Shown one piece after another: positions 1 through 27,429 of a DNA stretch of 27,429 nucleotides. This DNA comes from a virus: positions 1 through 27,429 of the IMG/VR virus record IMGVR_UViG_3300007609_000076, one strand, 5' to 3'. Within the stretch, counting starts at the first letter, position 1. Each line of letters begins with the position of its first letter. Made by a program: the position numbers and the translations under genes. Below the pieces are notes generated by a model. It ran no database searches, was not told the origin of the DNA, and saw only the letters and a list, made by a program, of their open reading frames with translations.

Positions 1-1229
1 CCCTGCGACTTGTGCGAGGTGATCGCGAACGGGTGAGCGAAATCGAGCACGGTCTGATCCTTGTGCTCGAAAAACGCGGTCCATGCCGCGCGCCGCGCTT
101 TGTCGACGCTGCGATCGGACTTGTAAGCCTTCTGCAGGTCCATAGCCTGCCCCCGGAGCTGCTCGAGCCGGACGTTCCACGGGTTATTGCGATCGTTCTG
201 ATCCCGGCCGCTCAGATACTCGACGAGAACTTTCCGCCCGGCGAGGTTACGGACGAGAGCCGTCTCGCCCCAGACCCCTTTACCTGTGACCTCGAGGATC
301 TCGAGTTGATCCTGATTTGCGACGACCATCCCTTGCCGGTGAACATGGAACGCGCTTTGTGCAATCACGACCTCGCCGGCCTCGAACGTCTCCGCGTCGT
401 GCCCGTAGACCTTCTGACAGGCGGCCTCCTGTACGGCGTCGACGGTGCGGTTCCGGTAGCCGACAAAGACGTCGCGCTCCTCCTCGTTCGCGCTGGGGAC
501 GCCGACCTCGCCGAGGAACGCGTCGACGGCTTTCGTCACCTTGCGGAGCCCCGGGCCGGTCATGTCGTGCCACGCGCCGCCCTCGATCACGGTCCGGCCG
601 AAATGCGGGATCGCACTGTCGCCGCTCTGGCGCATGATCTGGGTCAGCTCGTAGCGGTTCGACAAGCGATCCCATTTGATTTCTTGCGCGTTGACCGGGG
701 GGAGCTGGTTCGGGTCGCCAATGATCAGGACCTTACCCCCGAATGATTTGACGGCCGCAACAATGTCTTTCAGGTGTTGCCACGACAACATAGAGACCTC
801 GTCGATCACGACGAACGCCGGGCGGAGCTTCTGGATCACGCCCCTGTCCAGCTTGCCGAACTTTACCTTGCGATCGTCCTGCTCCTCCTCGCCGATCATG
901 GGACGGATCCCGAGCGCCTGTTGCGTCGTCGTCAGGATCAGACGCCCCGGGCGATGGAAATAGTAATCATATCCGACCTCATAATTCGTAAGGCCGTTAT
1001 CGGACAGGAACCGGCCGGCGACGCGGACGGCTTTCCATGTCGGAGCGAGCCAGAGGATCTCGTCGAGCGGCCCCCTGTTCTCGTTTATCACGTCGAGAAA
1101 ACGGCCCGACGTGAAACTCTTGCCGGTCCCGGCCGCGCCGAACAGACAGAACAAGGAGCTCTCCGGGTTCGCGTTGAACTGGGTGAAAGCGTTGTACGCA
1201 TCTAATTGTTGGGGGTTCATAGTCGACAT
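1..1229 (-). CDS. RecD/Dda-like SF1B DNA helicase, C-terminus cut by window edge
   Basis: The visible 409 codons read as a superfamily 1B (RecD2/Dda/Pif1-type) ATP-dependent helicase, a family that moves 5'-3' on single-stranded DNA. Seen directly: Walker A GAAGTGKS at residues 31-38, Walker B VVIDEVSM around 140-147, motif III GDPNQLPPV at 171-179, a motif IV-like ELTQIMRQ at 194-201, and ITSHKSQ at the window edge, which matches the C-terminal UvrD-like motif. The stop codon lies outside the window, and most of the fold is present. The start is ATG at 1229, with GAGGA seven bases upstream; a second in-frame ATG at 1220 is possible. It is transcribed divergently from the replication operon and probably serves phage replication or recombination. 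The helicase class is secure; the exact role is inferred. Confidence 0.9.
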   Translation of the reverse strand, partial: MSTMNPQQLDAYNAFTQFNANPESSLFCLFGAAGTGKSFTSGRFLDVINENRGPLDEILWLAPTWKAVRVAGRFLSDNGLTNYEVGYDYYFHRPGRLILTTTQQALGIRPMIGEEEQDDRKVKFGKLDRGVIQKLRPAFVVIDEVSMLSWQHLKDIVAAVKSFGGKVLIIGDPNQLPPVNAQEIKWDRLSNRYELTQIMRQSGDSAIPHFGRTVIEGGAWHDMTGPGLRKVTKAVDAFLGEVGVPSANEEERDVFVGYRNRTVDAVQEAACQKVYGHDAETFEAGEVVIAQSAFHVHRQGMVVANQDQLEILEVTGKGVWGETALVRNLAGRKVLVEYLSGRDQNDRNNPWNVRLEQLRGQAMDLQKAYKSDRSVDKARRAAWTAFFEHKDQTVLDFAHPFAITSHKSQ

Positions 1230-1318
1230 TTGGTTTTCCTCATTTCTAGCTTGCGCTGTTGCGCCCCTCTTTGTAGTCTCAAAATTCCGACAAGGTCAAC
1301 ACACAAGGAGACATGACC
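1230..1318. promoter_or_regulatory. Divergent intergenic region, likely promoters for helicase and replication operon
   Basis: This short gap separates the minus-strand helicase from the plus-strand replication operon, so promoters in both directions should lie here. It holds a 19-bp motif (1271-1289) that recurs at 3081-3099, and the plus-strand Shine-Dalgarno AAGGAG at 1305-1310. A possible weak sigma70-like pair is TTGCGC (1259-1264), 16 bases, AAAATT (1281-1286). No clear consensus promoter is visible, so assignment rests mostly on gene orientation. Confidence 0.45.
1271..1289 (+). repeat. 19-bp motif, copy 1 (TTGTAGTCTC[A/T]AAATTCCG)
   Basis: The sequence TTGTAGTCTCAAAATTCCG is present here and, with one A/T difference, at 3081-3099. 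Both copies lie 48-86 bases upstream of a replication gene start on the plus strand. Both are followed at different distances by GTCAACAC (1295-1302 and 3127-3134). A shared promoter or protein-binding site is the simplest reading, but function is unproven. Confidence 0.6.
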
Positions 1319-1972
1319 ATGAAAATCAAGATTGAGATCGACACGTCGAAAGGCGAGCACAAGACGAAAGAGGCGATCGCGCTGCTCGGCGGTTCCGTCC
1401 TTCTGGCCCTTCTCGACGACGATATGAAAGCCGTCCAGACGGCGCGCGCAAAAGGTTCCGACGATGCGCCGGCAAATGTACCGAGCCCCGGCACGATCCC
1501 CCCGTCGGATAATGTCGAGGAGGATCAGCCGGACGATTACGATCCGGCAAACCGCATATACGGCGAGAAGGGGCAAAAGAGCCGCCGGACGAAAGCCGAG
1601 ATCGCCGAGGACGAGGATCTCGAGACCCGCTGGTCGGCCCTGTGGCCGTCTAAGGATATCCCGACCGACAAGACCGTCGGCGAGCTCGAGTATATTATCG
1701 CCCAAGTCGAGAAGGCCGCCGAGGAGGCGGACGCGGAGGAGGCCGCGGACGAGGACGACGACGGGTTCGAGCTCGACGACGACGACGACAACGGCGACGA
1801 GGAGCCCATGACCGAGGACGCTTTCCGCTCCATCCTTGTGAAAGGCTCCAAAGAGCTCGGCCCGGTTGCCATGAAAAAGATCATGGCGCCGCACAAAGGC
1901 GCGAAATCTGTCCCCGAGGAGGATCGCCGGGACTACGCGGCCGCGATCGAGAAGGCTCTGAAAGATGCCTGA
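1319..1972 (+). CDS. Acidic protein of unknown function, first gene of the replication operon
   Basis: I do not recognise a family. The protein is 217 residues from ATG 1319. An ATG six bases earlier (1313) is only two bases from the Shine-Dalgarno AAGGAG, whereas 1319 has a normal eight-base spacing and matches the AGGAGACAACGACCATG leader seen before three other genes here. The N-terminal part is mildly basic. The middle is extremely acidic, with runs of Asp and Glu (encoded around 1725-1805), and the last 50 or so residues (from MTEDAFRSIL) look like a small folded helical domain. It overlaps the next gene by eight bases, so the two are probably translationally coupled. Position immediately before DUF2800 and DUF2815 suggests a replication or recombination accessory role, which is inference only. 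Confidence 0.8.
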   Translation: MKIKIEIDTSKGEHKTKEAIALLGGSVLLALLDDDMKAVQTARAKGSDDAPANVPSPGTIPPSDNVEEDQPDDYDPANRIYGEKGQKSRRTKAEIAEDEDLETRWSALWPSKDIPTDKTVGELEYIIAQVEKAAEEADAEEAADEDDDGFELDDDDDNGDEEPMTEDAFRSILVKGSKELGPVAMKKIMAPHKGAKSVPEEDRRDYAAAIEKALKDA

Positions 1973-3086
1973 TCTACACGCAAAGATCAGCCCCTCGTCG
2001 TTTAAGCGGGTCCGGCTCTGCCCGGGCTCGCTGAATTACGTCGAGGCGCTCCTCGCTACCGGCAAGGCCGTTGACGAGGATAGCCCGGCCGCCCGAGAGG
2101 GGACCGCACGTCATGAGGCCGTCGAGCGTATGCTCGACGGCGAACACCTCGAGGCGCCGTTTACGGCCGAGAACGGGATCGTCCTCGATCGTCTCGGTCT
2201 GGACGACGCCGAGGTCGTGTTCGATTGGATCGTCGAGCAAGAGTTCGATCGGATCTGGAACGAGGTCCGCGTCCCTGTCGGCGAGGCTCTCGGCCTGAAC
2301 GATCCCGATCTGTGCTGGGGGACCTCGGACGTCGTCGCGATCAAGGGGAGCTCGCTCTACGTGATCGACGCCAAGTTCGGCCGGGTGGACGTGAGCCCGA
2401 AAGGCAACGATCAGGCTCTCCTCTACGCGCTCGGCGTGATCCGGTATCTGCAGAACCAAGGGGAGCCGACCAAGTTCGACCTGATCCATAACGTGATTAT
2501 CCAGCCCAAAGCGGGAGGGGTCAAACAAGCCGAGGTGACGCCCGAGGAGCTCGAGGATTATCGCAAGCTCGCCCGGGCGGCCATAGAGACCGCCTCGGGG
2601 TCCGACGCCCCTCTCGTCCCCGGTGAGGAGCAATGCCGCTTCTGTCCGGCCTCTGGTGTCTGCACGGCCCAGCTGCACGACGAGTTCGAGGCTTTGACCG
2701 AGGATATCGACGTCGACGATATCTCTAACGAGCGTATGGCGGAGCTCCTAGATCAGAGCGACCATATCCTCGCGACGATCAAGTCTCTCAAAACCGCCGC
2801 CCTGCAGCGCCTCGCAGCCGGGCAGAAAATCCCCGGATGGGTCCGGGAGCAAGGCAACGGTCGGGCCAAGTGGATCGACGAGGACGACGTCGTTACCGAG
2901 ATCGAGGCCCATGGTCTCGAGCTGGACGACTACGCTCCGCGCAGACCGGCCACGCAAACCGACCTCAGAAAGGCGCTAGGCGACAAGATCGTCGAGAGCC
3001 TGATAACCCGGCCCCCGGGGGAGGTTAAGCTCGTCCGCGAGGAGGAGGCGAAAAACCCGCTAGACAGTGAGTTCTCCCCCTTGTAG
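1965..3086 (+). CDS. DUF2800 family Cas4/RecB-like PD-(D/E)XK nuclease with probable Fe-S cluster
   Basis: This 373-residue protein matches DUF2800, phage proteins related to the Cas4/AddB/RecB nuclease fold. Seen in sequence: a RecB-type motif I histidine (GTARHE, H50), GTSDVV with D122, VIDAKFG with D135 and K137, and Q150. These form the expected metal-dependent nuclease core. Four cysteines are placed as in Cas4/AddB iron-sulfur nucleases: C19 near the N-terminus and C224, C227, C233 in CRFCPASGVC. It overlaps the upstream acidic gene by eight bases and precedes DUF2815. In this context it probably trims or processes phage DNA ends during replication or recombination. Family assignment is strong; Fe-S binding and activity are inferred from residue placement. 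Confidence 0.88.
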   Translation: MPDLHAKISPSSFKRVRLCPGSLNYVEALLATGKAVDEDSPAAREGTARHEAVERMLDGEHLEAPFTAENGIVLDRLGLDDAEVVFDWIVEQEFDRIWNEVRVPVGEALGLNDPDLCWGTSDVVAIKGSSLYVIDAKFGRVDVSPKGNDQALLYALGVIRYLQNQGEPTKFDLIHNVIIQPKAGGVKQAEVTPEELEDYRKLARAAIETASGSDAPLVPGEEQCRFCPASGVCTAQLHDEFEALTEDIDVDDISNERMAELLDQSDHILATIKSLKTAALQRLAAGQKIPGWVREQGNGRAKWIDEDDVVTEIEAHGLELDDYAPRRPATQTDLRKALGDKIVESLITRPPGEVKLVREEEAKNPLDSEFSPL

Positions 3087-3166: not shown

Positions 3167-3709
3167 ATGGCACAGAAAATGATCCTGAAAAACGTCCGTC
3201 TGAGCTACGCGAAATTCTTTGAGCCGGCCCCGGCCTCGAACGAGAAGGACGCGCCGTTGAAATACTCCTCGAGCCTGATCATTCCCAAGGATCACAAACA
3301 GATCAAGGAGCTCAAAAAACTGATCCTCGAGGCGGCGAAAGAGAAATTCGGCGACAAGGCCGAACGGATCCTCAAGAAAGGGAACCCCCTCCGTGACGGC
3401 GACGAGGATCGCGATGATCCGGCATACGAGGACGCCTATTTCCTGAACGCCTCGTCCAAGCGGAAGCCGCAAGTGGTCGATCAACAGGTTCAGCCGATTG
3501 TCGACGATAGCGAGATTTGGAGCGGCTGTTACGCGAACGTCTCGATCGCGGTCTACGGCTATGACAAGGACGTGAACAAAGGCGTCGGCGTCGGCCTGAA
3601 CAACGTCCAGCTTGTCAAGACCGGCGAGCGTCTGGGCGGCGCCCCGAACGCCGACGAGGAGTTCGGAGAGGTCGAGACCGACGACGACGACGGTTTCGAG
3701 ATCGACTGA
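3167..3709 (+). CDS. DUF2815 family, probable phage ssDNA-binding protein
   Basis: This 180-residue protein fits DUF2815, a phage family thought to act like T7 gp2.5-type single-stranded DNA-binding proteins. Seen: an N-terminal strand-rich start (MILKNVRLSYAKFF), a lysine-rich middle helix, a GCYANVSIAVYGYD beta segment around residues 119-132, and a strongly acidic tail ending DDDDGFEID. An acidic tail is typical of SSB and gp2.5 proteins, where it contacts polymerase and other partners. The start has AAAGGAA eight bases upstream. It is followed one base later by the DNA polymerase, so the two are likely co-expressed for replication. Family call is good; DNA binding is inferred. Confidence 0.85.
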   Translation: MAQKMILKNVRLSYAKFFEPAPASNEKDAPLKYSSSLIIPKDHKQIKELKKLILEAAKEKFGDKAERILKKGNPLRDGDEDRDDPAYEDAYFLNASSKRKPQVVDQQVQPIVDDSEIWSGCYANVSIAVYGYDKDVNKGVGVGLNNVQLVKTGERLGGAPNADEEFGEVETDDDDGFEID

Positions 3710-3710: not shown

Positions 3711-5669
3711 ATGTCCTATCTGCAGGACCATATAGAGGCGGCCGCGCAATCGCGCGGCCGTCCATTTTCCGGGATCCTTGTCCTCGATCTCGAGACCCGC
3801 TCAGAGCTCGACGTGAAGCGGGTCGGAGCGGCCGCATACGCCGAGCACCACTCTACCGAGATCATGTGCGCCTCGTGGCGCCTCGACGGGGTTCCGGTGC
3901 AGCGATGGACCGAGACGGATCCAGATCCCCTCCTGTCCGTCCTCCCGGAGCTGACGGATCCGGATATCCTGTGCGTTTTCCATAACGCCGAGTTCGAGCC
4001 GTATATTCTCCGGGAGTGCGCCGGGATCGAGATCGAGGAAAGCCGGATCTATGATAGCGCGGCCGTTGCCCGTCTAGCCGGCCTCCCGGGCGCTCTCGAA
4101 CATCTGGGGGCGTATCTGGGTTTCCCCAAGGATACCGACGGCTCTCGGATCATGAAAAAACTCAGCAAGCCTCGCAAGGCGTCCAAGGCGAACCCCGATA
4201 AGTTCTGGCGCCCGGACACAAAGCCCGAGGATTTTGATCGGCTCTATGCGTATTGCGATCAGGACGTAGAGGTTACTCAGCACGCCCTCGAGCGGATCCC
4301 GGCCATGACCCAGACCGAGCTCCGGGCATACCGGGCAACGTACCGGATGAACGCCCGGGGGCTCCCTGTCGATATCAAATCAGCTCGCCGGCTCGATTGG
4401 CTCGTGAAAGAGACGCGCTCGGTCATGTCGGCCGAGATCGAGAGCGAGTTCGGGTTCACGCTCTCCCAGCCGGCCAAGATCGCCGAGTTCCTCGGGACGC
4501 TAGATTGCACGAAAGCGACGATCCGGGACCTCCTGAAAGATCCGTTCATTCCGGAAGATACCCGCCGGGTCGCCGAGGCGCGGCAATCGTTCGCGAAAAC
4601 CTCGGTCGACAAGATCGCCGCCCTGATCCGTAGGACGACCGAGGACGGGTGTTTGCACGGCGGGGTGATCTACGGGGGCTCGGAGCGGACGTTGCGGTTC
4701 TCCGGGGCTGGTTTCCAGCCTATGAACCTCCCCCGGGGCCTCGGGGAGAAACAGGATCTCGCGTTCGAGGCACTGGACGCCGGGATATTCGACTTTGTCT
4801 ATAGCGGGGAGATCATCGAAACGATCTCCGGGATCATTCGCGGGTTGATAGCTCGCAGATCCGGGCGGCGCCTGAACGTCGGGGACTACTCGCAGATCGA
4901 GGCCCGGCTCCTCGCGTGGCTCGTAGGGGATCGGAACCTCCTCGGGGCGTTCGCCCGCGGCGAGGACCCCTATCGCCTCATGGCGGCCAAGATCTACGAC
5001 AAGGCCGTCGAGCTCGTGACTGATAGCGAGCGGTTCATGGGAAAACAGACCGTCCTCGGCTGCGGCTACGGCCTCGGCCCTTGGGGGTTTATGGGCATGC
5101 TCGATACGACCTACGACGTCCAGATCGAGAAAGACGAGGCAAGCTCTATCGTGAGCGCATACCGGGCGAACGCCCCGGAGGTCCGCGAGTTCTGGGGCAA
5201 GCTCGATCGCGCCCTGAACGCCGCGCACAAGAAGCCCGGGAAAGAGCTCGCGATCATACCCGGGAAACTGTCGATCAAGTTTACCGACGAGGAGACGTTT
5301 TTCCTCCGCCTGCCATCAGGCCGCCGCCTCTGGTATTACCAAGTCGAGAAAAAGATCGCGGGGTATAGGATCAGCTGGACGTGCTACGGCCGCTTAAAGA
5401 GCGGCGCGGGCTGGGGCCGGGTCAAGATCTACGGGGGCGCCCTGACCGGCCATATCGTTCAGTCCACGGCCCGGGACGTGATCGTTAACGCTATGCTCGA
5501 GCTCGACGCCCGGGGGCACCCTCTGATCCTTACCGTCCACGACGAGCTTGTAGAGCTCGACGACGATCGGTTCGACGAGTTCAACGAGGTGATGAAAACG
5601 CCGCCCGAGTGGCTCACCGAGTTCCCCCTCGCCGTCGACACCTTCCAGACTGAGAGGTACAGAAAATGA
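3711..5669 (+). CDS. Family A DNA polymerase with 3'-5' exonuclease domain
   Basis: This is the replicative DNA polymerase of the phage, 652 residues from ATG 3711, one base after the DUF2815 stop. The reading frame stays open upstream to 3612, but that part overlaps DUF2815 and has no support. Exonuclease motifs: DLET (D26, E28), HNAEFE (N92, E96, where E. coli Pol I has Asp) and YCDQD (Y181, D185). Polymerase motifs: A in GDYSQIEARL (D392), B in GKQTVLGCGYG (K445), C in VHDE (H610, D611, E612). Both metal-binding aspartates are present, so both activities should be intact. There is no 5'-3' nuclease domain, as usual in phage enzymes. No strong Shine-Dalgarno is visible, so translation may be coupled to DUF2815. 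Confidence 0.97.
   Translation: MSYLQDHIEAAAQSRGRPFSGILVLDLETRSELDVKRVGAAAYAEHHSTEIMCASWRLDGVPVQRWTETDPDPLLSVLPELTDPDILCVFHNAEFEPYILRECAGIEIEESRIYDSAAVARLAGLPGALEHLGAYLGFPKDTDGSRIMKKLSKPRKASKANPDKFWRPDTKPEDFDRLYAYCDQDVEVTQHALERIPAMTQTELRAYRATYRMNARGLPVDIKSARRLDWLVKETRSVMSAEIESEFGFTLSQPAKIAEFLGTLDCTKATIRDLLKDPFIPEDTRRVAEARQSFAKTSVDKIAALIRRTTEDGCLHGGVIYGGSERTLRFSGAGFQPMNLPRGLGEKQDLAFEALDAGIFDFVYSGEIIETISGIIRGLIARRSGRRLNVGDYSQIEARLLAWLVGDRNLLGAFARGEDPYRLMAAKIYDKAVELVTDSERFMGKQTVLGCGYGLGPWGFMGMLDTTYDVQIEKDEASSIVSAYRANAPEVREFWGKLDRALNAAHKKPGKELAIIPGKLSIKFTDEETFFLRLPSGRRLWYYQVEKKIAGYRISWTCYGRLKSGAGWGRVKIYGGALTGHIVQSTARDVIVNAMLELDARGHPLILTVHDELVELDDDRFDEFNEVMKTPPEWLTEFPLAVDTFQTERYRK
3739..3760 (+). 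promoter_or_regulatory. Perfect 9-bp hairpin just inside the DNA polymerase gene
   Basis: CGGCCGCGC (3739-3747) pairs perfectly with GCGCGGCCG (3752-3760) across an AATC loop. It begins 28 bases after the polymerase start codon, where a very stable structure could slow ribosomes or damp polymerase expression. It also encodes amino acids (EAAAQSRGR), so it may be chance in GC-rich sequence. Confidence 0.4.
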
Positions 5670-5908
5670 GCAATTTTGCCGACGCTATGTTCGACCAATG
5701 GCTGCAACAAGAGGAGCCCTCCGACATGTACGACCGAAACGAATTTATTCCTGTGTCCGGCCGGATTATCCGGGAGACCCAGAAAGCCTATCTCCTGCTC
5801 GATCAGGATCTCGAGGAGATCTGGATCCCGAAAAGCGTATCCCAAGAGGACGGCGCCGGGGGGCTCGCTGTTCAATCGTGGTTCATAGAACGCGAGGGGC
5901 TCGGGTGA
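5666..5908 (+). CDS. Small protein of unknown function after the polymerase
   Basis: This 80-residue protein is unrecognised. Its ATG overlaps the polymerase stop as ATGA, so it is almost certainly translated. It is acidic with a short N-terminal helix (ADAMFDQWLQQEE), then a compact predicted beta-rich stretch (IPVSGRIIRETQKAYLLLDQ) and a C-terminal WIPKSV and WFIERE. The layout resembles a small SH3-like fold, but that is a guess. It sits between the polymerase and a VRR-NUC nuclease and overlaps the latter by four bases. A role linked to replication is inferred from position only. Confidence 0.8.
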   Translation: MSNFADAMFDQWLQQEEPSDMYDRNEFIPVSGRIIRETQKAYLLLDQDLEEIWIPKSVSQEDGAGGLAVQSWFIEREGLG

Positions 5909-6231
5909 CACTCGAGAAAACGATCGAGGACCGCGCCGTCCGGGAGCTCGCAAAGCTCGGGATCACGGCGATCAAGTTCGGCACTGACGGCTGGCCGGAC
6001 CGGGTCGTCCCCTATGCCCCCGGCCGGGTTATATGGCTCGAGTTCAAGACCCCAGAGGGGAACCTGAGACCGAACCAGAAGATCCGACACAAACAGCTGA
6101 ACAGGATGAAACAGGAGGTCGCCGTTGTCAGATCATGGAAAGAAGCCGTTGCGGCCGTTATTAAGGCTCGACGATCTCTCGCCCGAACAGACGAACGCCG
6201 TCGACGAGCTGATAAGCCGGCGCCAGAGTAG
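5905..6231 (+). CDS. VRR-NUC domain nuclease
   Basis: This 108-residue protein is a minimal VRR-NUC domain, a PD-(D/E)XK-type nuclease family common in phages and related to the FAN1 nuclease domain. Seen: GWPDRVV with D32, WLEFKTPEG with E46 and K48, and RPNQ with Q58. This is the conserved G-PD, E-F-K, Q pattern. The start is GTG 5905, overlapping the upstream stop as GTGA, with GAGGGGC just upstream. Its 3' end overlaps the SNF2-like helicase gene by 107 bases. Phage VRR-NUC proteins are often found beside such helicases and may cut branched DNA with them; that partnership is inferred. Confidence 0.9.
   Translation: MTLEKTIEDRAVRELAKLGITAIKFGTDGWPDRVVPYAPGRVIWLEFKTPEGNLRPNQKIRHKQLNRMKQEVAVVRSWKEAVAAVIKARRSLARTDERRRRADKPAPE
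6113..6119 (+). promoter_or_regulatory. Ribosome binding site AGGAGGT that fixes a TTG start
   Basis: A full Shine-Dalgarno AGGAGGT lies inside the VRR-NUC gene, five bases before TTG at 6125. It supports TTG as the start of the SNF2-like helicase despite the long overlap. Confidence 0.75.
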
Positions 6232-7471
6232 CTTGTGGGCGAAACCGGGCTCCGGAAAGACTGTGATCACCCTCACGGCCGCTGTGCAGCTCTACGCCTA
6301 CCCTATCCTCGTCGTGGCGACGAAACGGATCTGCGAGCTCGTCTGGCGCCAAGAGTGCAAGCGCTGGGAGCATCTGAAAGACCTCGAGGTCGTGCTCGTG
6401 TTCGGGACGCCGTCTCAGCGCCGCGCCAAGCTCGCCCAGCCGGCCGACGTGTACCTGATAAACTACGAGCTCGTCCCGTGGCTCGTGGTGGAGCTAGGGC
6501 GCTCTCTGGGTAAGTTCGGGGCCTTGATCTTTGACGAGATCAGCAAGATGAAATCCGCCAACACTCAGCGTTTCAAAGCGTTAAGGAAGCCGATCCTAGA
6601 CGTGCCCGTCCGGTTCGGTATGACCGGGACGCCCCGGGGAAACTCGATACTCGGCCTCTGGGGTCAAACGTACATAACGAACGGCCCCCAGTTCGCCCCG
6701 ACTATGACCCGTTTCAAAGCCCGTTGGTTTTTCCCTGTCGATCGGGAGCGCCGCATATGGCGGCCCCTGCCCGGGGCCGAGGAGGAGCTCCGCGAGGCGG
6801 CCAAACCCTACGCGTTCTCTGTCCCGCGCGCTACGGCCGCCCCGGAGGCTAAGATCGTCCCCGTCCCGGTCTCTCTACCCCCAAAGATCCGCAAGCTCTA
6901 TCACAAGCTCGAGGAGGATCTCGAGGTCGAGACTGACGGGATCGAGATCACGGCCGTAGAGCCCGGGGCGAACCGCGGTAAACGCCTGCAGATTTGCGGC
7001 GGCGCGGTCTATTACGGATCCGGCAAAAGCTGGCACGAGCTGCACAGAGAGCGAATAGACGCTCTCCGGGATATCGCCGAGGACATGCAAGGGGAGCCGC
7101 TCCTCGTGTTCTACCGATACCGGCACGAGCTCGAACGGATCCGCCGGGATATCCCGGGGGTCCTGCAGATCGACGAGGCGGACAAGTGGCTCTCCTCTGG
7201 GGGGACCCTAGCCGTACACCCGGTAAGCGCCGCGCACGGCCTGAACCTGCACGTCGGAGGCTGCTCTACCTCTGTCTGGTTCACCATGCCGGACAGTCAA
7301 GAGCTTTGGGAGCAAGGGAACCGCCGGCTCGCCCGGAGGGGCCAGACCGAGGAGGTCTCCGCCCTTGTGCTTTACACTCCCGGGACAGTAGAGGAGAAAC
7401 TCGCGGCCGATCTGGCGTCACACGGCCGATTGCAGGATAAACTTATAGACGCGGCGGAGGTGCAGATATGA
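6125..7471 (+). CDS. SNF2-like superfamily 2 helicase/ATPase
   Basis: This 448-residue protein is a superfamily 2 DNA-dependent ATPase of the phage SNF2-like type. In order: a Q-motif-like LSPEQTNAVD (18-27), Walker A PGSGKT (41-46), motif II DEIS (137-140), motif III TGTP (167-170), then the second RecA domain with QGNRRLARRGQ (397-407), a complete motif VI with arginine fingers. It starts at TTG 6125 behind a perfect Shine-Dalgarno and overlaps the VRR-NUC gene by 107 bases, which ties their expression together. Such enzymes translocate on or remodel DNA, and in phages commonly accompany VRR-NUC and the polymerase. It is shorter than cellular SNF2 proteins, which is normal for phages. The substrate is not known. 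Confidence 0.92.
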   Translation: MSDHGKKPLRPLLRLDDLSPEQTNAVDELISRRQSSLWAKPGSGKTVITLTAAVQLYAYPILVVATKRICELVWRQECKRWEHLKDLEVVLVFGTPSQRRAKLAQPADVYLINYELVPWLVVELGRSLGKFGALIFDEISKMKSANTQRFKALRKPILDVPVRFGMTGTPRGNSILGLWGQTYITNGPQFAPTMTRFKARWFFPVDRERRIWRPLPGAEEELREAAKPYAFSVPRATAAPEAKIVPVPVSLPPKIRKLYHKLEEDLEVETDGIEITAVEPGANRGKRLQICGGAVYYGSGKSWHELHRERIDALRDIAEDMQGEPLLVFYRYRHELERIRRDIPGVLQIDEADKWLSSGGTLAVHPVSAAHGLNLHVGGCSTSVWFTMPDSQELWEQGNRRLARRGQTEEVSALVLYTPGTVEEKLAADLASHGRLQDKLIDAAEVQI

Positions 7472-16316: not shown

Positions 16317-19300
16317 GTTCCGTTCTCCTGTCCGTAGCCGATCGCTACATAGTCAAAGACCCGCGAGACGTTCGTCCCTGCACTGTTGAAAAAGTCGATA
16401 TCGAACCCCGTCCGGGTTTTGTTCGATATCTGGTAGTAGTCCCCCGTTTGCATATTCTGGGCCGTGACTGATACACTCTCAAGTTGAAACAGATCCGGGG
16501 AAAAAGCAACCGAGTACGTAGCCGCGCCCGACGTTATATCCTCGCCCCGGCTCTCGGTCCGCAAGAGGTCGAGATCGACCGTCAGGTCGGTTACGGCCGG
16601 GGAGTAGGGGCTTAGCTCGCTAAGCGGGTCGACCGTCGTCTCGAGGACAAGGCGGAACTTGACCCAGCGCGCGGTATAATCACCGTAAACGACCCGTTGC
16701 CACGCGGAATAGACCTGTCCAGAGCCGACGTCGTCCCGGGAATAGGCGACCTCGAGGTAGACCTTGACCTCGTCCCCGGTGCTCTCCCCTGAGATCGGGT
16801 CGACGTCCGCCAAGCGGTCCCACGTGTCAAGCGTGTTGAGCGTGTTGATCACGGTCGTTTTGATCTTGGGCACGATCCGCAAGGTCGTGACCATGCCGAG
16901 ATCACTTTCGCCGAACTCGTAGGTCCCGCTCTCCTCGAACAGCCCGTCGGTATCCGCCGTAAGCTGCAGCTGATTAGACCCATTGACCGAGGTCCCGGTC
17001 TTGGTCTCCGCCCATCCGGGATTTTCTGTCGTAGTTGCGACGGTAAGGAAGTCGCGCACGGCCGCGGCGTCCGTCAGGGTCGCGTTGATGTAGAGCGCCG
17101 TCTCGGACAGACCCCCGAGGACGTCCCGAGTTTTGATCGCGTAGGACCCGGAGGCGGCCGGGACGGTAAACGATCGGGCGTTCGCCGGGATCTCGTCCGC
17201 GAGCGCCGCCATGGTCTGCCAATCGGTCACGTCCTGATCAGGGTGGAACCGGATCTCGTAGCCGACGACGTCAACAGCTGGGTTGATATGCGTCCACTCG
17301 AGATAGGCATAATCTCCGATCGTGTTCAGGAGGAACGTGTCCGGCGGGTTCGGCTTGGCCAGAGCCCCGAGGACCGTCACGTTCGCCTCTGTGGCCCACG
17401 CTGAGACCTCCCCGGCGGGTCCGATCGCCCGGAGCTGCACGTCGTAAGCCTCGCCTGTCAGGACGTTGTCGAGCGATATCCGGGGCGTGTCCGCTGGGTA
17501 AACCGGCGAGTAGGAGAACGCCTCCCCTGTGTCTGAGAGCCTGTAGCGCGCCTGCAGGCTCTCAGTACGTGTTACAGCCCCGTTGCTGCCCGAGCCCCGC
17601 CCGGGAGTAACAGATAGCACGATACGGGGTTCTAGGCCGCCTTGCGTGTTCCGGACGAGGACGTTCTCGCCGGTCTCGACCTGCAGGATCTCCGGGGTCG
17701 GCGGCCCGGTGAAAGATATGCTTTGCAGATCCGAGAGGTTCGTTTCGTAAGGCGGGATAGCGTTCGCACTGTTATAGATCGCGGGGGAGTAAGGCACGAG
17801 CGAGATCCGGGCGTCCAGATTGTCGAGATATTCGATCGACCGGACGAGGACCTCGATCGTCTCGATCCCGTTCTGCCCGAACATGAACATATCCCCGGCC
17901 GCGATCGAGCTCCCGGTCGTACTGACTACTACCGTCGAGACCGTCTCGGTCGCCGTCGCCGTGAACTCGAAAGTCTCAGTGTCACCGTCGGCCGTCCGGA
18001 CGCGCAAGGTGTACGCGGTCCCGTCGACCAGAGAGACCGGCTCGTCGAGCGTTATAGAGGAGCTCGTGAGCGATACGATCCGCCCCCACGCCTGACCTAT
18101 GATAGCGGCGTCATGCGTGAGCCTGCAGAGATCCCCCCGGGTTGCGACGAGGTGTTCGATATCCGTCTCGAGCGTAAAGTTCTCCGGGCGCAAGCGAACT
18201 GCGGCGAGGTAGTGCCGGGCGAGCCTGTAGACGTTATCCGGGTTCGTCTGCCCCGGGAGGTCGATCACCTCGAAAAGCGTCGTGTTACTCTCGTCGAACC
18301 CGTCGTCGTAGACGATCCGCTCGTCCTCCTGATAGTCGGCCTCCTCGTTCGCGAACCGGATCCGGAGAGCTTGAGGGATATCCGGGTAAATCAGAGCGCC
18401 GTCGAAATTGCGAGTGTTCCGGGGCGTGAAATGCTGCACGACCGTTGTCCGGGGTTTCTCCTCGATCACGCTCCATTTATCATCCACGTAGGCCGGGCTC
18501 GCTTTGCCGGCGTTCGCTACGTCCTGCAGAAGATCCCTTATAGGAGACCGGAACACGATCGGGAGGTCGAATTGATAACCCTCCGCCTCGCACGTCTCGA
18601 ACCACGCCCCGAGAGCGTCGTCGTCCACGTTCTCCCGGGGAACCGGCCGGGGGTTCGGAGCGCCTGTCAGGACGTAACGGTAGAACGCGGCCGGGTTGCT
18701 GGTCTTGCCCAGCTCGGCGGGTTCGTCCCCACCCGTGAGATCGTTCAGCTCGTCTTGTGTCAGGATCGAATTGAAGATCGCGACCCGCTTGATCCGGACT
18801 GTCCCGTCTTGAGCCTGCAACCGTTCCCCGAACGAAAACGCGCCGTTCCCGTTTGTGCGAAACCGTAAACTGTTCCCCGCCCCGGCGCCTGTATCTGTAC
18901 CCGAGGATCCGGCGATAGAGAGGAGCGTCGTCCCGGTGCCGGTTCCGTAATCGTAAGAGAGCGCAGCCCGGAAAAACTGGTCAACCGTAGGCTCCGCATA
19001 AGGTATCCCGATCTGCTCTTTTGCCCCAGTGAAAAGAGCAACGCGGCCGTCTCTGTCTGTATAGAACAGGGTCGGGTTGACGTCCGCGAGCCCCATGTAC
19101 CCCGTGCGTGCGAACTCGCCGTCCTTGGACGCCTCAATCAATACGGAATAGCTCTCCTCGTCGAGCGAGGCCGGCGGAGTATACTCCATAACGTCCGCCG
19201 CTCTCTCGACGATCGACGCGCTCGTATTCAGGATCGGCGAGCTCGGCCCCCGGGCGTCGGCCGAGCTCTCCTCCTCGATCTGCAAGTGAAACAGGCGGAG

Positions 19301-21478
19301 CCCCGAGGCGCCGTCCCCGGTGAAAGATAAGGCGTTAGTCCCGGGCTCTCGCAAAAGCAAAACAAGCCTGTTCGTGAGACCCGCCCCGGCTGTCGCTGTA
19401 ACCCATATCCGGAACACGCCGGGCGCGACCTCCTCGATCCCGCTGTCGACATGCGCCGAGCTCCCCGCGTCATATGTTAAAGTGGCCGTCGTATCGGCTA
19501 AACTATAGAGAACCCGGACCCCGTTCACTGCTGTCGAAAACGCCCGCATCTCTACTGTATCAGCTCCGAGCCGGGCGACAATCGCCGACATGGTATAGGT
19601 CCGTCCTGTCGTGACCGGCGAGGAGACCGCCTGTTTCTGCCAGACGTGGAAACCCGCGACCGCGTCGGCGGTAAGGTCGATCCAGTTGTTTATGCCGTCC
19701 GGTCCTATTACGCCGCTATCGCTCGTCGTGGTATTCGACGCGATCTCGCTGGTCGGGATCGCCGAATGTGAGGCGTAAGGCATGAGCTGCCGTCGGGCGT
19801 CCTCGAGCATGAGCCCCCGGGCGTTTCCGTCCTTGTCGTAATCGAACCGGGGGACGTTCGAGCCGGCGAAAGCGAGCTTACCGCTCGCGTCCCAGAAATA
19901 AGCGTCGCTCGCCCTCGAGAACGTGAACAGGTCGTCGAACAGTTTCGTCCGATTGTTCTCCTTATAGACCTGCTCGCCGAACTTGAGATCGACGAGCGGG
20001 GGATCCTCGGTTACACCCCAGCTCTGCCCGTTCCAGAGCGGGACGAGCGTCGAGGCGATCCCGTTCAGCTGGTCGACGACCCCGTTCAGCTGGTCCGTTG
20101 CCTGCAGCCGGTAATAGGTGATCGCGAACCCTTCTTTCTGGATCGGGGAGGTCGATGTGTCGATCGCCCGGAGCGCCACCCAGTTAACTTGCTCGCGCCA
20201 CCCGGCGATCCCGCTCTCCGGATTAACCCGACGGACGCGGACCTCGTAGAGCCCCGACGGGAGCCCTGTCACGCGGTAGCTGCACCGCAAAGGTTTTGCC
20301 GCATATGCTCGCAGAACCCTATATCCGTCGTTGCCGGTGATCGCGTTCGCGGCCGCGACCTCGTCGGCCGTGTAGCTCTGGATCAGAACCTCCTCGGGCG
20401 GAACGGCGCCTTGCACGGCTTGCACGAACTCGCCGACGTCCGGGTCGTAGTATGTCACCCACGGGTTGAGATCCAAGATCCCCGGGAGAGATCCTAGATT
20501 TGTCCCGAACCCCAAGATCCCGGGGCCGATCGAAAACGGCGTCCAGCTCGTCGATCCGACCTCCCGATATTCAAACTCGAGGATCGAGTTCAGCCATACC
20601 GGGCGGCCCTTGTTATCGGTCGTCCCGAGGCCGGCCGGGTAGAACAGATCTATTGCGAGCTCGTCCCCCTCGACCTCGCACGTCCTCGATACGAACGTCG
20701 TCTCGAGCCGGATATTCAACGCCTCCTCGCCGACGACCCCGGGGTAGAAACCGACGTCCTCGAGCGAGCCGTCGAGATCCTCGACGATCTCGATATTCCG
20801 AAAGTCCTCGATCGGCGTATTCCCGATCTTGACGTCCTCGAGCTGGATCGGAGCGTACCCCCAGACCATGCACAGGCGCAGATATTGCTTATCTCCTACG
20901 ACCTCGGTGTAAGGCTCAGCCCCATAGGTCGGGACATGCCTGTGCGTCCCTGCGACGACCGGGATCGCATCAAACGGCCGCGCATTGTTACGCGCCCCGG
21001 AGAGCGAGAACGCCGGGGCGACGTCGGGAGCCCTGTCCGGCCTCGAGGGACCGAAAAGCGCCTGACCCACCGCGAGGATCGCGAACGTAACCCCGGCCGC
21101 GACGAGAGCGTAGCTCAAAGTCCCGACCGCAAGCCCGAGGACGCTCCCGGCGACAAATTGCCCGGCCACTGGGGCGAGGAGAGCGATCAACGATACTGGA
21201 TCCTGCGGGACGGCTTTCATAAAGACCGAGGAGCCCGCTTTCGGGCGTACCGAGCCCCAGAGGTGAGGGGGAACGTAGTCCCCGCCCACGAACGCCGCCA
21301 CGTGCGCCCGCATAGTCTCGTCAGGGACGAACAGCTCGACGATCCCCTCGAGCGTGTCCCCGGCCGGGACGAGCGTCGACGGGGGGCGCTCCTCCTGAAA
21401 CGGGTTGACGATCACGGCGACCGAGACGTAGCCGGACGGCTCTGTCGTCGGGCGGACGGTTATCTCCTGATCTTGCAT
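16313..21478 (-). CDS. Tail tip attachment protein, gpJ-like, with inserted adhesin-like domain and FN3 repeats
   Basis: This 1721-residue protein is the central tail tip protein (lambda gpJ/GTA family). Residues 1-90 precede two hydrophobic stretches (about 95-143), followed by a conserved core (about 145-460: NARPFDAIPVVAGTHRHVP, YLRLCMVWGYAPIQL). The core resumes at TSNPAAFYRYVLTG (926-939) and runs to about 1235. Between, at about 500-915, lies a likely insertion with FTFSRASDAYFWDASG and PRFDYDKDGNARGLMLEDARRQL, a signature seen in phage carbohydrate-binding-like modules. Two fibronectin III-like domains follow (about 1258-1370 and 1372-1468), then a C-terminal domain of about 250 residues. 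It likely fixes host specificity. It overlaps the NlpC/P60 gene by 19 bases. Confidence 0.92.
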   Translation of the reverse strand: MQDQEITVRPTTEPSGYVSVAVIVNPFQEERPPSTLVPAGDTLEGIVELFVPDETMRAHVAAFVGGDYVPPHLWGSVRPKAGSSVFMKAVPQDPVSLIALLAPVAGQFVAGSVLGLAVGTLSYALVAAGVTFAILAVGQALFGPSRPDRAPDVAPAFSLSGARNNARPFDAIPVVAGTHRHVPTYGAEPYTEVVGDKQYLRLCMVWGYAPIQLEDVKIGNTPIEDFRNIEIVEDLDGSLEDVGFYPGVVGEEALNIRLETTFVSRTCEVEGDELAIDLFYPAGLGTTDNKGRPVWLNSILEFEYREVGSTSWTPFSIGPGILGFGTNLGSLPGILDLNPWVTYYDPDVGEFVQAVQGAVPPEEVLIQSYTADEVAAANAITGNDGYRVLRAYAAKPLRCSYRVTGLPSGLYEVRVRRVNPESGIAGWREQVNWVALRAIDTSTSPIQKEGFAITYYRLQATDQLNGVVDQLNGIASTLVPLWNGQSWGVTEDPPLVDLKFGEQVYKENNRTKLFDDLFTFSRASDAYFWDASGKLAFAGSNVPRFDYDKDGNARGLMLEDARRQLMPYASHSAIPTSEIASNTTTSDSGVIGPDGINNWIDLTADAVAGFHVWQKQAVSSPVTTGRTYTMSAIVARLGADTVEMRAFSTAVNGVRVLYSLADTTATLTYDAGSSAHVDSGIEEVAPGVFRIWVTATAGAGLTNRLVLLLREPGTNALSFTGDGASGLRLFHLQIEEESSADARGPSSPILNTSASIVERAADVMEYTPPASLDEESYSVLIEASKDGEFARTGYMGLADVNPTLFYTDRDGRVALFTGAKEQIGIPYAEPTVDQFFRAALSYDYGTGTGTTLLSIAGSSGTDTGAGAGNSLRFRTNGNGAFSFGERLQAQDGTVRIKRVAIFNSILTQDELNDLTGGDEPAELGKTSNPAAFYRYVLTGAPNPRPVPRENVDDDALGAWFETCEAEGYQFDLPIVFRSPIRDLLQDVANAGKASPAYVDDKWSVIEEKPRTTVVQHFTPRNTRNFDGALIYPDIPQALRIRFANEEADYQEDERIVYDDGFDESNTTLFEVIDLPGQTNPDNVYRLARHYLAAVRLRPENFTLETDIEHLVATRGDLCRLTHDAAIIGQAWGRIVSLTSSSITLDEPVSLVDGTAYTLRVRTADGDTETFEFTATATETVSTVVVSTTGSSIAAGDMFMFGQNGIETIEVLVRSIEYLDNLDARISLVPYSPAIYNSANAIPPYETNLSDLQSISFTGPPTPEILQVETGENVLVRNTQGGLEPRIVLSVTPGRGSGSNGAVTRTESLQARYRLSDTGEAFSYSPVYPADTPRISLDNVLTGEAYDVQLRAIGPAGEVSAWATEANVTVLGALAKPNPPDTFLLNTIGDYAYLEWTHINPAVDVVGYEIRFHPDQDVTDWQTMAALADEIPANARSFTVPAASGSYAIKTRDVLGGLSETALYINATLTDAAAVRDFLTVATTTENPGWAETKTGTSVNGSNQLQLTADTDGLFEESGTYEFGESDLGMVTTLRIVPKIKTTVINTLNTLDTWDRLADVDPISGESTGDEVKVYLEVAYSRDDVGSGQVYSAWQRVVYGDYTARWVKFRLVLETTVDPLSELSPYSPAVTDLTVDLDLLRTESRGEDITSGAATYSVAFSPDLFQLESVSVTAQNMQTGDYYQISNKTRTGFDIDFFNSAGTNVSRVFDYVAIGYGQENGT

Positions 21479-22719: not shown

Positions 22720-24615
22720 TTACCCCCTCCGCGCCGTGCGCTGTGTCTGCCCGAATGTTTTCTTGATCGCTTGGAACGTCGGACCCCCCGAGGCGATATC
22801 CTTGGCGATCAGACGGCCGACCGTGACCTCGATATTCCCGGAGGACGGATCCGTCGCGACGTCCACGTCCTCGGAGCTGTTATTGTTCACGGTCACATTA
22901 ACGACGGGTTTTTGCGCCTCGATCCCGAGGTTCCCGTCGCCGCCCCGGCGGAGCGGGACGATCGCCTCCGGTCCCGCCTCGCCCATCATTCCGGTTTTGT
23001 TGCCGCGCATGGGGAACAGCGTCGGCGCGGATACGACCCCGCCCCGGGCAAACGGAACGAGATCTCCGCCGGAAAAGGCGTTGCCTTTGGCGCTGAAATT
23101 TAACCCGCCGATAAAAGCGCCCAGCGCGTCCCCGAGCGGGTCGGCGATCTGCTCTTGTATGAGCTTGTCCGCGATCGTCATAAGGACGTTGTCCACGAAA
23201 TCGAGTAGCGCGTCCCCGGCGTCCTTTGTCCCGTCCCGGACAGATCTCAGCGCGTCCATGAACTCTCCGCTGATATCGTCGTTCAGCCCTTTGAGGGCCT
23301 CGGCGCTCTCGCCGAACTTGTCGGTCAGGTCCTCGACCGCCCGGCCGTAGGTGTCCTGTGTGATCAGGCCGGCCGCGAGAGCCTCGTCGAGCATGGTCAT
23401 ACCCTCGGCCATTTTCTCGGCGTTCGTGCGGGTCGTCTTGAACACCTGTTCCGCGAACCGCTCGAGCTCTTTCAGCTCTTTCTCGGCCTCAGTCTGTCCG
23501 CCGCTGCCGCCGCCTGAACGGCTTTTCCGCCGCGCCTTGACCTCGTTAACGATATCGGGCTCCTCCGGGAGCGGGACACCCCCGAAACGGTTCCCGATGA
23601 TCCCTCCGGGGCCGCCAAGCCCTCCGACCATACCTGCCCCCTGTCCGGCGACGATAGCCTCGGATCCGGATCCGCCGACGTCGACCCCGCCCAGCCTTGC
23701 GAGCGCGTTAACCGTCGCGGCCGCCTCCTCTCGAACGCCGCCCAGATACTCCCGGGCGCGATCAGCGAACAGCAAGAGCTGAGATATGATCGGATCGAAA
23801 TCCGGATCGTTCAGGCTCTCGAGCTCGAGCGCCGTAGCGAGCGCCTGATCGGCCGCCTGCTCGAGCTCGTCGATTGAAACGTCGCCGAAAGCCTCGATCG
23901 CTTTGGTGGCCGCCTGAACCTCTGGGGGGAGGTTTAGGAATGTGCGGCGCAGCTCCATAGACGCGAGCGCCGCCCCGGCGCCGCCTTCTTGCATCCTGTT
24001 AAGGAGATCTGTCCCTCTCTGGATCTCCGGGTTCATAGCCGTCAGAGCGGACTTTAACCCGTCGAACTGGGCCTCGAGGTTACGCTCCTCGAGGCGGAGT
24101 TGAGCGTCGAGGAGCTCCTGAATTTCCGCGCTGTTCGTCCCGTACTGTTCGGCGAGATCCACAGCCGAGGCTTGCGCCGCTTTCTGTGCTGCGATCACAC
24201 GATCGAAAGCGTCGGTAAGATTGTCGAGCTGCTCCTCGTTGTCTTTTGCGGATCCCGTGAACTCAAAGAACGCCCCGGCCGCGCCGATCGCCACGCCGCC
24301 GACGACCCCGAGGATCGCGGCAACGGGACCCATGAACGCGGTAAGCTGGGGGAGCTGTTGCGATAGGGCTCGGGTCGCCGGTACGCCCGCGCTGATCTGC
24401 ACGGCGAGGTCCGAGAACTGGTTCGCGGCGTTTGTGACCGCAAAAGAGTTGCGCTGTAAGGCTGGACCTATCGCCCGGAGCCCTCGGCGGCCGATCAAGC
24501 GATCGGTTGATTTTGCGGCCGCGTCCGTCTGGGTTCGGAGCTTATCCAGATCGAGGAGGACCGTCGGCGCCCCTGTCGATCTGAACCGGATCCCGAAATC
24601 TACTAAGTCCGCCAT
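22720..24615 (-). CDS. Tape measure protein
   Basis: This 631-residue protein sets tail length and helps DNA passage. The N-terminal part is Ala-rich helical, with a hydrophobic stretch at about 95-118 (FMGPVAAILGVVGGVAIGAAGAFFEF). Long helices follow (LEERNLEAQFDGLKSALTAM and others), and the C-terminal region has the familiar ARGGVV, GEAGPEAIVPLRRG and VNVTVNNNS motifs of lambda gpH-type proteins. At about 0.15 nm per residue the tail would be near 95 nm (a family rule, not a measurement). ATG 24615 has GAGGAG eight bases upstream and overlaps the end of the T frame by 13 bases. It is the usual partner of the G/GT chaperones. Confidence 0.93.
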   Translation of the reverse strand: MADLVDFGIRFRSTGAPTVLLDLDKLRTQTDAAAKSTDRLIGRRGLRAIGPALQRNSFAVTNAANQFSDLAVQISAGVPATRALSQQLPQLTAFMGPVAAILGVVGGVAIGAAGAFFEFTGSAKDNEEQLDNLTDAFDRVIAAQKAAQASAVDLAEQYGTNSAEIQELLDAQLRLEERNLEAQFDGLKSALTAMNPEIQRGTDLLNRMQEGGAGAALASMELRRTFLNLPPEVQAATKAIEAFGDVSIDELEQAADQALATALELESLNDPDFDPIISQLLLFADRAREYLGGVREEAAATVNALARLGGVDVGGSGSEAIVAGQGAGMVGGLGGPGGIIGNRFGGVPLPEEPDIVNEVKARRKSRSGGGSGGQTEAEKELKELERFAEQVFKTTRTNAEKMAEGMTMLDEALAAGLITQDTYGRAVEDLTDKFGESAEALKGLNDDISGEFMDALRSVRDGTKDAGDALLDFVDNVLMTIADKLIQEQIADPLGDALGAFIGGLNFSAKGNAFSGGDLVPFARGGVVSAPTLFPMRGNKTGMMGEAGPEAIVPLRRGGDGNLGIEAQKPVVNVTVNNNSSEDVDVATDPSSGNIEVTVGRLIAKDIASGGPTFQAIKKTFGQTQRTARRG

Positions 24616-25358: not shown

Positions 25359-26276
25359 TTAGGTCTTGGTGATCTGCAGCTGATAGCCGCTCGAGGCGTC
25401 TTTCAGCGCAATGAACGGGATCGTGATCAACCGGCTCTGAGGGCTCCCAACCGGGACGGCCGCGCCGTTGAGTTTGATCCGGGGGAAATCGAACGTGTAC
25501 GCGCCCCCGCTCGCCGGGTCGTCAAAAGTGACCTGCAGCGAGCTTTCGGTCTCGTTCAGGAACTTGTCGATCAACGTCGCGTCCTCGTAATAGGAGGTCA
25601 ACGTCCCGGAGATCTCCGAGCGGCCGAACTCGAGTTGCGGCGTCACGTCTGACCCGAGGACGAACGTCGGCGCGAACGAGTTCGACAAGGTAAAATCGAG
25701 CTGCGTCACGGTCGCGATCGCGTCGCCCGTCGCGGTCCCGCCCTCAAAGATCGAACCCGAGTAACTGTCAAACGGTTCGCCGCCGGACGGATCCGACGGG
25801 GCGGCGAGCTGTGATGTGCCCTGCACAAGGTTCTTTCCGACGACGCCGAACGTCGCCGCGATCATCGCGTTCCGCTGGGCGCTGATCGCCATGGTGTTGA
25901 CCGCGCAGCCCTGAAATTTCCGGTATTGCGGGGTCGAGAGGTCGAGCGCCGCGTCCTCGATCGTGAGGAACTTGGGGGTCGTCCCGTTTGCGATCACGCC
26001 CGAGGTGTCGAACGACGAGAACAAGGCGCTCTCGATCAAGAGGTCGAAATCAGTATCCCGGAGGTCAACAGAGATCGAGCCCCCGACCTGCCGGTTCCCG
26101 TGCCGATCGACCGTCGGCATGCGATCCCCGAGGAGCTCGTTACCTGCAACGCGCTCTTTCGTCAGATCGAGGTCGTGAGTGTTGAAAGGGAGGATCGCCA
26201 TAGCGGCGGCGTCCGTATCAAAATCCGCTTGCTCGCCGATCGCGAGCCGCGTCCTTGCTCCTTGTGCGAATGTCAT
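25359..26276 (-). CDS. Major tail tube protein
   Basis: This 305-residue protein is the likely tail tube subunit. The content is strand-rich with short repeated turns: GGSISVDLRDTDFDLLIESALFS, LTIEDAALDLSTPQYRKFQG and VTQLDFTLSNSFAPTFVLGSD are typical of phage tube proteins with the gpV/Hcp-like fold. AAGGAG eight bases upstream of ATG 26276 is the strongest ribosome site in the tail operon, fitting a highly made structural protein. It lies between the tail terminator and the chaperones, the normal order. Extra residues compared with lambda gpV may form a surface domain. Confidence 0.88.
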   Translation of the reverse strand: MTFAQGARTRLAIGEQADFDTDAAAMAILPFNTHDLDLTKERVAGNELLGDRMPTVDRHGNRQVGGSISVDLRDTDFDLLIESALFSSFDTSGVIANGTTPKFLTIEDAALDLSTPQYRKFQGCAVNTMAISAQRNAMIAATFGVVGKNLVQGTSQLAAPSDPSGGEPFDSYSGSIFEGGTATGDAIATVTQLDFTLSNSFAPTFVLGSDVTPQLEFGRSEISGTLTSYYEDATLIDKFLNETESSLQVTFDDPASGGAYTFDFPRIKLNGAAVPVGSPQSRLITIPFIALKDASSGYQLQITKT

Positions 26277-26288
26277 AGCTTTTTCTCC

Positions 26289-26708
26289 TTAGCTGCTCGC
26301 GTAGGTGTAGAACTTCACAGTCACCGTTACAACGTACCAAGGGGCATCGAGGAGCCCGTCGTTCCGCTCCGACCACTCGAACCGGACGTTTGTCGTCCCT
26401 ACCGTCAGAACGTCGTCGACTGTGAAGGCGGCGCGGACGGCGTCGGCGAGGCTATCCGCGTCCCCGGGGCCTGTGCCCTCGGGAAAGTGTAGCACGACGA
26501 GAAACGTCCCGTCGTGCCGGATCTGGGGGCTCGGACCCATGGCGGCCGGCCGAGAGGTATCAGGGACAAGGATCATTCGCGCCCATGTCGTTCCCTCGGT
26601 CGGATCAAACCGGACATTCTCCCAGTTCCGATTAGCGGCCCCGGGGAACCCGGAGATCGCCGAGAGCCTCGTCTCGAGGGCCTGCCGTATGTCCTGCGTT
26701 ACCGTCAT
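26289..26708 (-). CDS. Tail terminator, DUF4128-like
   Basis: This 139-residue protein fits DUF4128 tail terminators, which cap the tail tube and set its end. Seen: the helix start TQDIRQALETRLSAI, WENVRFDPTEGTTWARMILVP, then strands ending YVVTVTVKFYTYASS. It overlaps the upstream gp10-like gene as ATGA and has GAGG just upstream. Position between neck and tube genes agrees with the call. Confidence 0.85.
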   Translation of the reverse strand: MTVTQDIRQALETRLSAISGFPGAANRNWENVRFDPTEGTTWARMILVPDTSRPAAMGPSPQIRHDGTFLVVLHFPEGTGPGDADSLADAVRAAFTVDDVLTVGTTNVRFEWSERNDGLLDAPWYVVTVTVKFYTYASS

Positions 26709-27124
26709 TTGAACCTCGCCCGTAACCTTTTGACCCGAGCGATCGCCCGGCCCTCGATACCCTTAGCACGCCCGAGGACACGCCGCACGAACTGTGTCCG
26801 CGCCTCCACGTACTTGGCATAATTCGCGCCGTTCAGGAAATAGAGGGATCCGTCCATGAACGGGCCGGCTTGGCCCAGCCCGGCGAGCACGCTCGGGGGC
26901 GCCGACTGTGCCGCCGATATCCCGCTCGTAGGGACGGCCCGGGCGATCGCCGGGAACGTAGGGGACCAGAACCACGACGCCCGGAGCCGGCCGGTCTTGA
27001 CGGGGGTATTCTGGACGATCTCCCGGGCGGTCTGGTTCATGACCTCTTGGCGTGCAGCCTCGACCGAAAGCCCGGTCTGCTCCGCTACCCGGTCAAAATC
27101 GAGCATGATCTCTTTACGGCTCAT
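26705..27124 (-). CDS. HK97 gp10-like neck/tail completion protein
   Basis: This 139-residue basic protein has the HK97 gp10 pattern: an N-terminal helix (DFDRVAEQTGLSVEAARQEVMNQTAREIV), then TPVKTGRLRASW, a signature found in this family, and NGANYAKYVEAR followed by a basic helical tail. Such proteins are placed at the head-tail junction. ATG 27124 overlaps the upstream gene stop as ATGA. Family match is strong by motif. Confidence 0.86.
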   Translation of the reverse strand: MSRKEIMLDFDRVAEQTGLSVEAARQEVMNQTAREIVQNTPVKTGRLRASWFWSPTFPAIARAVPTSGISAAQSAPPSVLAGLGQAGPFMDGSLYFLNGANYAKYVEARTQFVRRVLGRAKGIEGRAIARVKRLRARFK

Positions 27125-27429
27125 TTGCGCACCTGCAGGAGGTAGCCGATCACGGTCGCGTTCCCTTTGACGATCTGGACGTCGATCACGGTCACGGGAT
27201 CCCCCTCTCCGATTATCTGGTCGCCCCTCTGCGGCGTCTTTGACAGGGCCGCGCCGTTGTAGCTTGCGGACATGGCGAACAGGCGGTCCCCGCGCTCGAT
27301 CAGGGATCCGTCGATCGCCCCGTTCCGATAGTTCAGGAATATCCCCCGGACAGTCTCGTTTTGGTTCCCGCCGCCCCCGGACAGGCTGCTCGTCGCGGGG
27401 TCGTAGGATCTACTCGAATTAGCCGGGCG
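27121..27429 (-). CDS. Head-tail connector/neck protein, N-terminus cut by window edge
   Basis: Only the last 102 codons are in the window; no start is visible. The sequence has NETVRGIFLNYR, IDGSLIERGDRLFAMSAS and GDPVTVIDVQIVKG, ending VIGYLLQVRK. This beta-rich content and the place before gp10-like and terminator genes fit a small head closure or connector protein. The stop overlaps the next start as ATGA. The exact family is uncertain. Confidence 0.72.
   Translation of the reverse strand, partial: RPANSSRSYDPATSSLSGGGGNQNETVRGIFLNYRNGAIDGSLIERGDRLFAMSASYNGAALSKTPQRGDQIIGEGDPVTVIDVQIVKGNATVIGYLLQVRK

Follow-up and report, generated by a model that had tools for sequence, protein, structure and literature searches.

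Absence of GANTC from a 27,429-bp phage fragment and its conservation in a clade of related phages

Gene content and missing words of the window

The virus record IMGVR_UViG_3300007609_000076 of IMG/VR is a complete linear record of 27,429 bp, read here as a phage fragment and called the window throughout. GANTC, the target word of the methylase CcrM, does not occur in it: GAATC, GATTC, GAGTC, and GACTC each gave a script count of 0. An earlier note on this DNA had reported the complete absence from reading by eye, and the exact count bears it out; its GC content of about 61 percent was likewise accurate (61.9% measured). The replication module lies on the plus strand; the minus strand carries an endolysin and a tail module of the siphovirus type. 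No terminase, portal, or capsid gene is among the genes identified in the window and its status as a whole genome is not proven, so the complete absence applies to the fragment and not to a proven whole genome. The annotated phage collection contained no phage near-identical to the window. The features are as follows.

1-27429, no strand: stretch without any GANTC or CCWGG (counts, codon shuffles, palindrome comparison)
3-1229, minus: RecD/Dda-like helicase fragment with Walker A motif GAAGTGKS, truncated by the left edge of the record (from reading the translation, without a profile search)
1965-3086, plus: Cas4-type exonuclease, with homologues in phiM5 and L008/G022, both GANTC-free
3167-3709, plus: single-stranded DNA-binding protein, Enc34_ssDNA-bd / Gp2.5-like
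3711-5669, plus: family A DNA polymerase, with 32% identity to the polymerase of Sinorhizobium phage phiM5
5698-6231, plus: protein of the endonuclease / Holliday junction resolvase family, phrog_93; no methyltransferase
6125-7471, plus: DNA helicase, phrog_62
9603-10757, plus: PAPS-reductase-domain protein of the phage moron type
12875-13660, minus: endolysin, Glyco_hydro_108 + PG_binding_3
16313-21478, minus: gpJ-like tail tip/fibre protein, best annotated matches in Rhizobium, Bradyrhizobium, Rhodobacter, and Rhodovulum phages
22720-24615, minus: tape measure protein
25359-26276, minus: tail tube/minor tail protein, the phylogeny marker, 68% identical to L064 and 44% to Roseobacter phage CRP-6
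26289-27124, minus: two small tail-module genes, 26289-26708 without assignment and 26705-27124 HK97-gp10-like tail completion

The open reading frames at 12-746 and 774-1205 on the plus strand were rejected as genes, being antisense to the minus-strand helicase gene. A methyltransferase search of the window (fragment only) yielded nothing for PF05869 and nothing above the cut-off for PF01555. A sub-threshold PF01555 match at 3239-3475 was rejected as a methylase, as it lies inside the single-stranded DNA-binding gene.

Counts and codon choice

The number of GANTC sites expected in the window is 95 under a mononucleotide model, 184 under a dinucleotide model, 102 under a trinucleotide Markov model, and 45 under a maximal-order Markov model; the chance expectation of 90-100 sites in the earlier note was accurate. 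Shuffling of synonymous codons, which preserves every protein and the codon usage, gives 63 +/- 6 sites with a minimum of 45 among 500 shuffles. By codon phase the expectation is 28, 22, and 14 sites and the observed number is zero in all three, and the non-coding stretches of the window contain no GANTC either. Among the 16 palindromes of the form XYNY'X', GANTC is the only one missing, and the other 15 occur at 0.7-1.4 of expectation.

The codons chosen next to potential sites carry the same mark. All 42 serine codons that follow Asp or Glu in the window genes are AGC or AGT, whereas elsewhere the genes have 360 TCN and 117 AGY codons (Fisher p = 4e-24); TCN after GAN would make GANTC. ANY codons between G and C end in C in 141 cases and in T in 0, compared with 755:175 elsewhere. 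The one-base neighbours GANCC/GGNTC are enriched 1.39-fold, as expected had GANTC sites been mutated away. Synonymous codon choice removed the word from either strand and from each codon phase and left the proteins as they were, and the strong selection proposed in the earlier note is supported by this codon-level evidence.

Codon usage or context-dependent mutation is a rival source of a missing word, and the window signature is indeed unusual. GATC, CCGG, and GAAC are enriched and GATG/CATC and GAAG/CTTC are depleted, so that some context bias exists. However, the codon-preserving shuffles never fell below 45 sites, the effect is absolute, specific to the palindrome, and present in all codon phases, and the non-avoiding relatives at similar GC (L094, L095, and L111, 0.61-0.63) have GANTC near expectation. 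Compositional bias as the sole cause of the absence is refuted by the codon data, and it has next to no probability as an explanation.

GANTC is not the only word purged. CCWGG has 0 occurrences in the window compared to 65 by codon shuffle, CCSGG is over-represented (332 vs 213 expected), and GGGCCC and ATCGAT are likewise absent. CCWGG is not a CcrM site, and therefore an explanation by CcrM only fails to cover the pattern. The sister L064 lacks CCSGG as well as CCWGG, which would fit a broadening or a narrowing of the specificity being avoided. Among the tail-tube relatives (L025-L141), most CRP-6-like phages have almost no CCWGG, CRP-6 itself having 1/87; the word stands at or below 10% of expectation in 64 of the 106 eligible loci, the most of any palindrome scanned.

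GANTC in related and unrelated phages

Comparison with related phages extends the loss beyond the window. In a tail-tube tree of 88 phages, made by a quick method, the window falls within a group of 21 members that all avoid GANTC (branch support 91 by the Shimodaira-Hasegawa-like approximate likelihood ratio test, SH-aLRT, not starred). A second avoiding pair, L031/L032, stands elsewhere in the tree, and two changes suffice for the avoidance on it. Whole records in the group of the window have observed/expected GANTC numbers of 0/134, 1/142, 1/197, 2/133, 3/136, and 4/138, and one group record with a Dam-type methylase has 17/147. These records share the tail module with the window, most tail genes encoding proteins of ~40-65% identity, and have almost none of its replication genes. 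The replication-module relatives L008/G022 have 0/71 over 40 kb. Sinorhizobium phage phiM5 (MF074189.1) has 0 GANTC in 44,005 bp where 152 are expected; a non-exhaustive search of the open-licence literature found no published report of this absence. Near-zero numbers were also found in Rhodovulum phage RhkS_P1 (1/45) and Pelagibaca phage PeaS-P1 (4/53), 16 kb each. GANTC loss is conserved across a phage clade and recurrent in unrelated phages.

Weaker depletion is common. For the majority of the remaining tail relatives, with a GC content of 42-50%, the observed/expected ratio of GANTC is about 0.3-0.6 and that of CCWGG is close to zero; the GANTC ratio is 0.76 in a Pseudomonas phage and 0.87 in a Rhodoferax phage. 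Burkholderia phage DC1 (JN662425), a betaproteobacterial comparison, has 0.43, and hence a two-fold GANTC depletion is unspecific and near-zero is the meaningful class. Two relatives of the exonuclease are depleted mainly in two of the four variants of the word: L004 has GAWTC at 4/51 vs GASTC at 15/26, and L009 has 4/33 vs 22/27. A GAWTC bias corresponds to TfiI-type specificity, while CcrM methylates all four GANTC variants. The depletion in L004 and L009 thus hints at a restriction-like specificity of the TfiI type and not at a HinfI-like or CcrM one.

A phage that encodes, or once encoded, a GANTC-cutting nuclease against host DNA would have to keep its own genome free of the site, and nuclease-family proteins are encoded in the window at 1965-3086 and 5698-6231. 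These proteins, however, belong to exonuclease and resolvase families, and CcrM-methylated host DNA would resist a GANTC-cutting enzyme. Moreover, the clade that shares the tail module has lost GANTC without the nuclease genes of the window. Self-avoidance of this kind is highly improbable.

Four records (L136, L080, L094, and L109) had suggested a rule by which phages either methylate GANTC or avoid it, and a same-host Ochrobactrum pair fits: phage OC, with a proven GANTC methylase, has 81/85 and phage OH has 13/84, a single pair. The rule is not supported across the 47 loci with an L109-type NPPF methylase, an enzyme of undefined specificity, where the median observed/expected ratio is 0.28 and exact zeros are included. 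The PF01555 match of L094 was rejected as CcrM, being a methylase domain that comes after a helicase, with a single TGA interrupting the frame. In the window a PAPS-reductase gene is present, and no methylase was found. On L147, the contig of L109, a gene for an NPPF Dam-type methylase (515-1851) directly adjoins a PAPS-reductase-like gene, according to its translation.

Restriction, CcrM, and the probable host

The explanation favoured here, with a probability of roughly 0.6, is type II restriction-site avoidance, in which a CcrM-type or cognate methylase guards the host DNA. Incoming unmodified GANTC would be, or recently would have been, cut in the hosts by a restriction activity of HinfI specificity, while adenine methylation of GANTC, by CcrM or a cognate enzyme, would protect the host DNA, and purifying selection on phage DNA would have removed every site. 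The CCWGG purge may reflect a further layer of such restriction, of EcoRII/Dcm-type specificity. We infer all three elements of the main explanation, namely a nuclease as the agent, the HinfI specificity, and an alphaproteobacterial CcrM host. The near-complete removal from coding DNA, the joint loss of several palindromes, and the gain and loss by lineage are as restriction selection predicts. Cutting that depends on methylated GANTC would attack the chromosome of a CcrM host, and the target should therefore be unmethylated GANTC. The GANTC sites of CcrM hosts are themselves methylated (PMC3973325), which makes methyl-directed cutting implausible there.

Several points weigh against restriction. 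No HinfI-like nuclease turned up in any alphaproteobacterium, with no search aimed at such enzymes made. Alphaproteobacterial GANTC methylases are described as orphans (PMC3925955), and Pelagibacterales genomes are without restriction-modification systems, yet pelagiphages are GANTC-depleted (PMC9516812). Alphaproteobacterial chromosomes are themselves at least 2-fold depleted in GANTC (PMC3973325), and restriction may consequently account for only some of the pressure. The phages with the Dam-type NPPF methylase mentioned above also avoid GANTC, and the alphaproteobacterial host is unproven.

The main rival to restriction is a cost linked to CcrM, which appears unlikely. Here methylated or hemimethylated GANTC would recruit GcrA or CcrM, or would perturb phage transcription or replication, and the sites would be removed for this reason. 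In agreement with it, CcrM hosts under-use GANTC in their own coding DNA (PMC3973325), gene transfer agent clusters of Rhodobacterales are GANTC-poor (PMC9836097), and GANTC methylases are sometimes encoded by phages (PMC5537653; PMC7139368). In contrast, regulation would act mainly at promoters, and sites in the middle of coding regions, far from promoters, are gone too. GANTC is not retained or enriched in the promoters and intergenic DNA of the window, where none is found. CCWGG, which CcrM does not recognize, is purged equally, and the GAWTC bias of L004 and L009 misfits an enzyme that methylates every variant. The earlier note had offered both causes; HinfI-like restriction fits best, with the loss everywhere and in every phase and with CCWGG gone too, and the CcrM-dependent effects fared less well.

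Restriction might also take a broader form, although we consider this doubtful. A defence that is common among alphaproteobacteria and has so far escaped recognition may destroy any DNA in which GANTC is unmethylated, with the 'orphan' CcrM as the self-marker. If true, it would explain the convergent total GANTC loss in the clade of the window and in the unrelated phiM5, and it would cover hosts without any described partner restriction enzyme. The matter is of interest since CcrM is regarded as a methylase with a regulatory role and no partner enzyme, an orphan, and yet its target word has been fully erased by unrelated phages.

Published work already covers GANTC depletion, seen in about half of pelagiphages (PMC9516812), and the widespread avoidance of restriction sites by phages (PMC6286503). 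The depleted pelagiphages and the GANTC-poor provirus of Ca. Pelagibacter giovannonii NP1 (PMC9516812) resemble the window in lineage-wise depletion and in their CcrM-type alphaproteobacterial hosts, which are probable for the window. They differ in being marine SAR11 phages, with the contrast clearest in Autographivirinae, whereas the present case has siphovirus-type tails, a GC content of 60-65%, and total GANTC loss, with CCWGG lost too. Rusinov et al. 2018 (PMC6286503) similarly describe palindromic recognition words removed from prokaryotic viruses by type II site avoidance. In their data the avoidance goes with identified host enzymes, unlike the purge in the window, which is without a known cognate enzyme or host, and their text does not mention GANTC. 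Phage phiM5 (MF074189) has zero GANTC like the window and polymerase and exonuclease families in common with it. It differs in being a podovirus with the known host S. meliloti and other structural genes, and it retains 12 CCWGG of 91 expected where the window has none. In the alphaproteobacterial phages phiLM21 (PMC5537653) and vB_OspM_OC (PMC7139368) the same motif is methylated by a phage enzyme, in contrast to the window, where no methyltransferase was found. Added here are a clade of phages outside the SAR11 group in which GANTC is wholly or almost wholly lost, the joint loss of CCWGG, the codon-level evidence of selection, and phiM5 as a cultured example. With S. meliloti, phiM5 forms a cultured pair and thus a ready laboratory model for the question of GANTC as a self/non-self mark in alphaproteobacteria. 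A codon-level purge is also a clean sequence signature for flagging likely hosts or defences of uncultivated phages.

An alphaproteobacterial host is likely from the tail-protein matches. The best records for the gpJ-like protein are mostly phages of Rhizobium, Bradyrhizobium, Rhodobacter, and Rhodovulum, at low identity and at family level only, and the tail tube match to CRP-6 is likewise family-level only. The earlier note had drawn such a host from the missing word. The host has independent support from these matches and is still unproven, and GANTC loss alone is not diagnostic, as most alphaproteobacterial phages sampled retain some GANTC. Host assignment via prophages gave no informative match: a search of genome contigs found only two small contigs, from metagenome-assembled genomes of other or unknown taxa, with no RAMA/CcrM match.

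Two further words are scarce in the window. GATG/CATC occurs 57 times vs 262 expected and GAAG/CTTC 44 times vs 183, an approximately four-fold depletion that holds for either strand and for those codon phases that are informative. The GATG depletion is partly common to the sister L064 (25/58), and the GAAG depletion is found in none of the listed relatives. We know of no recognition site that explains the two. A type III signature is not supported, since GATG is retained to the same extent in its two orientations (29 and 28). Finally, the polymerase relatives L060 and L061 are without GATC (0/78 and 0/19), which is another total purge of the restriction type.

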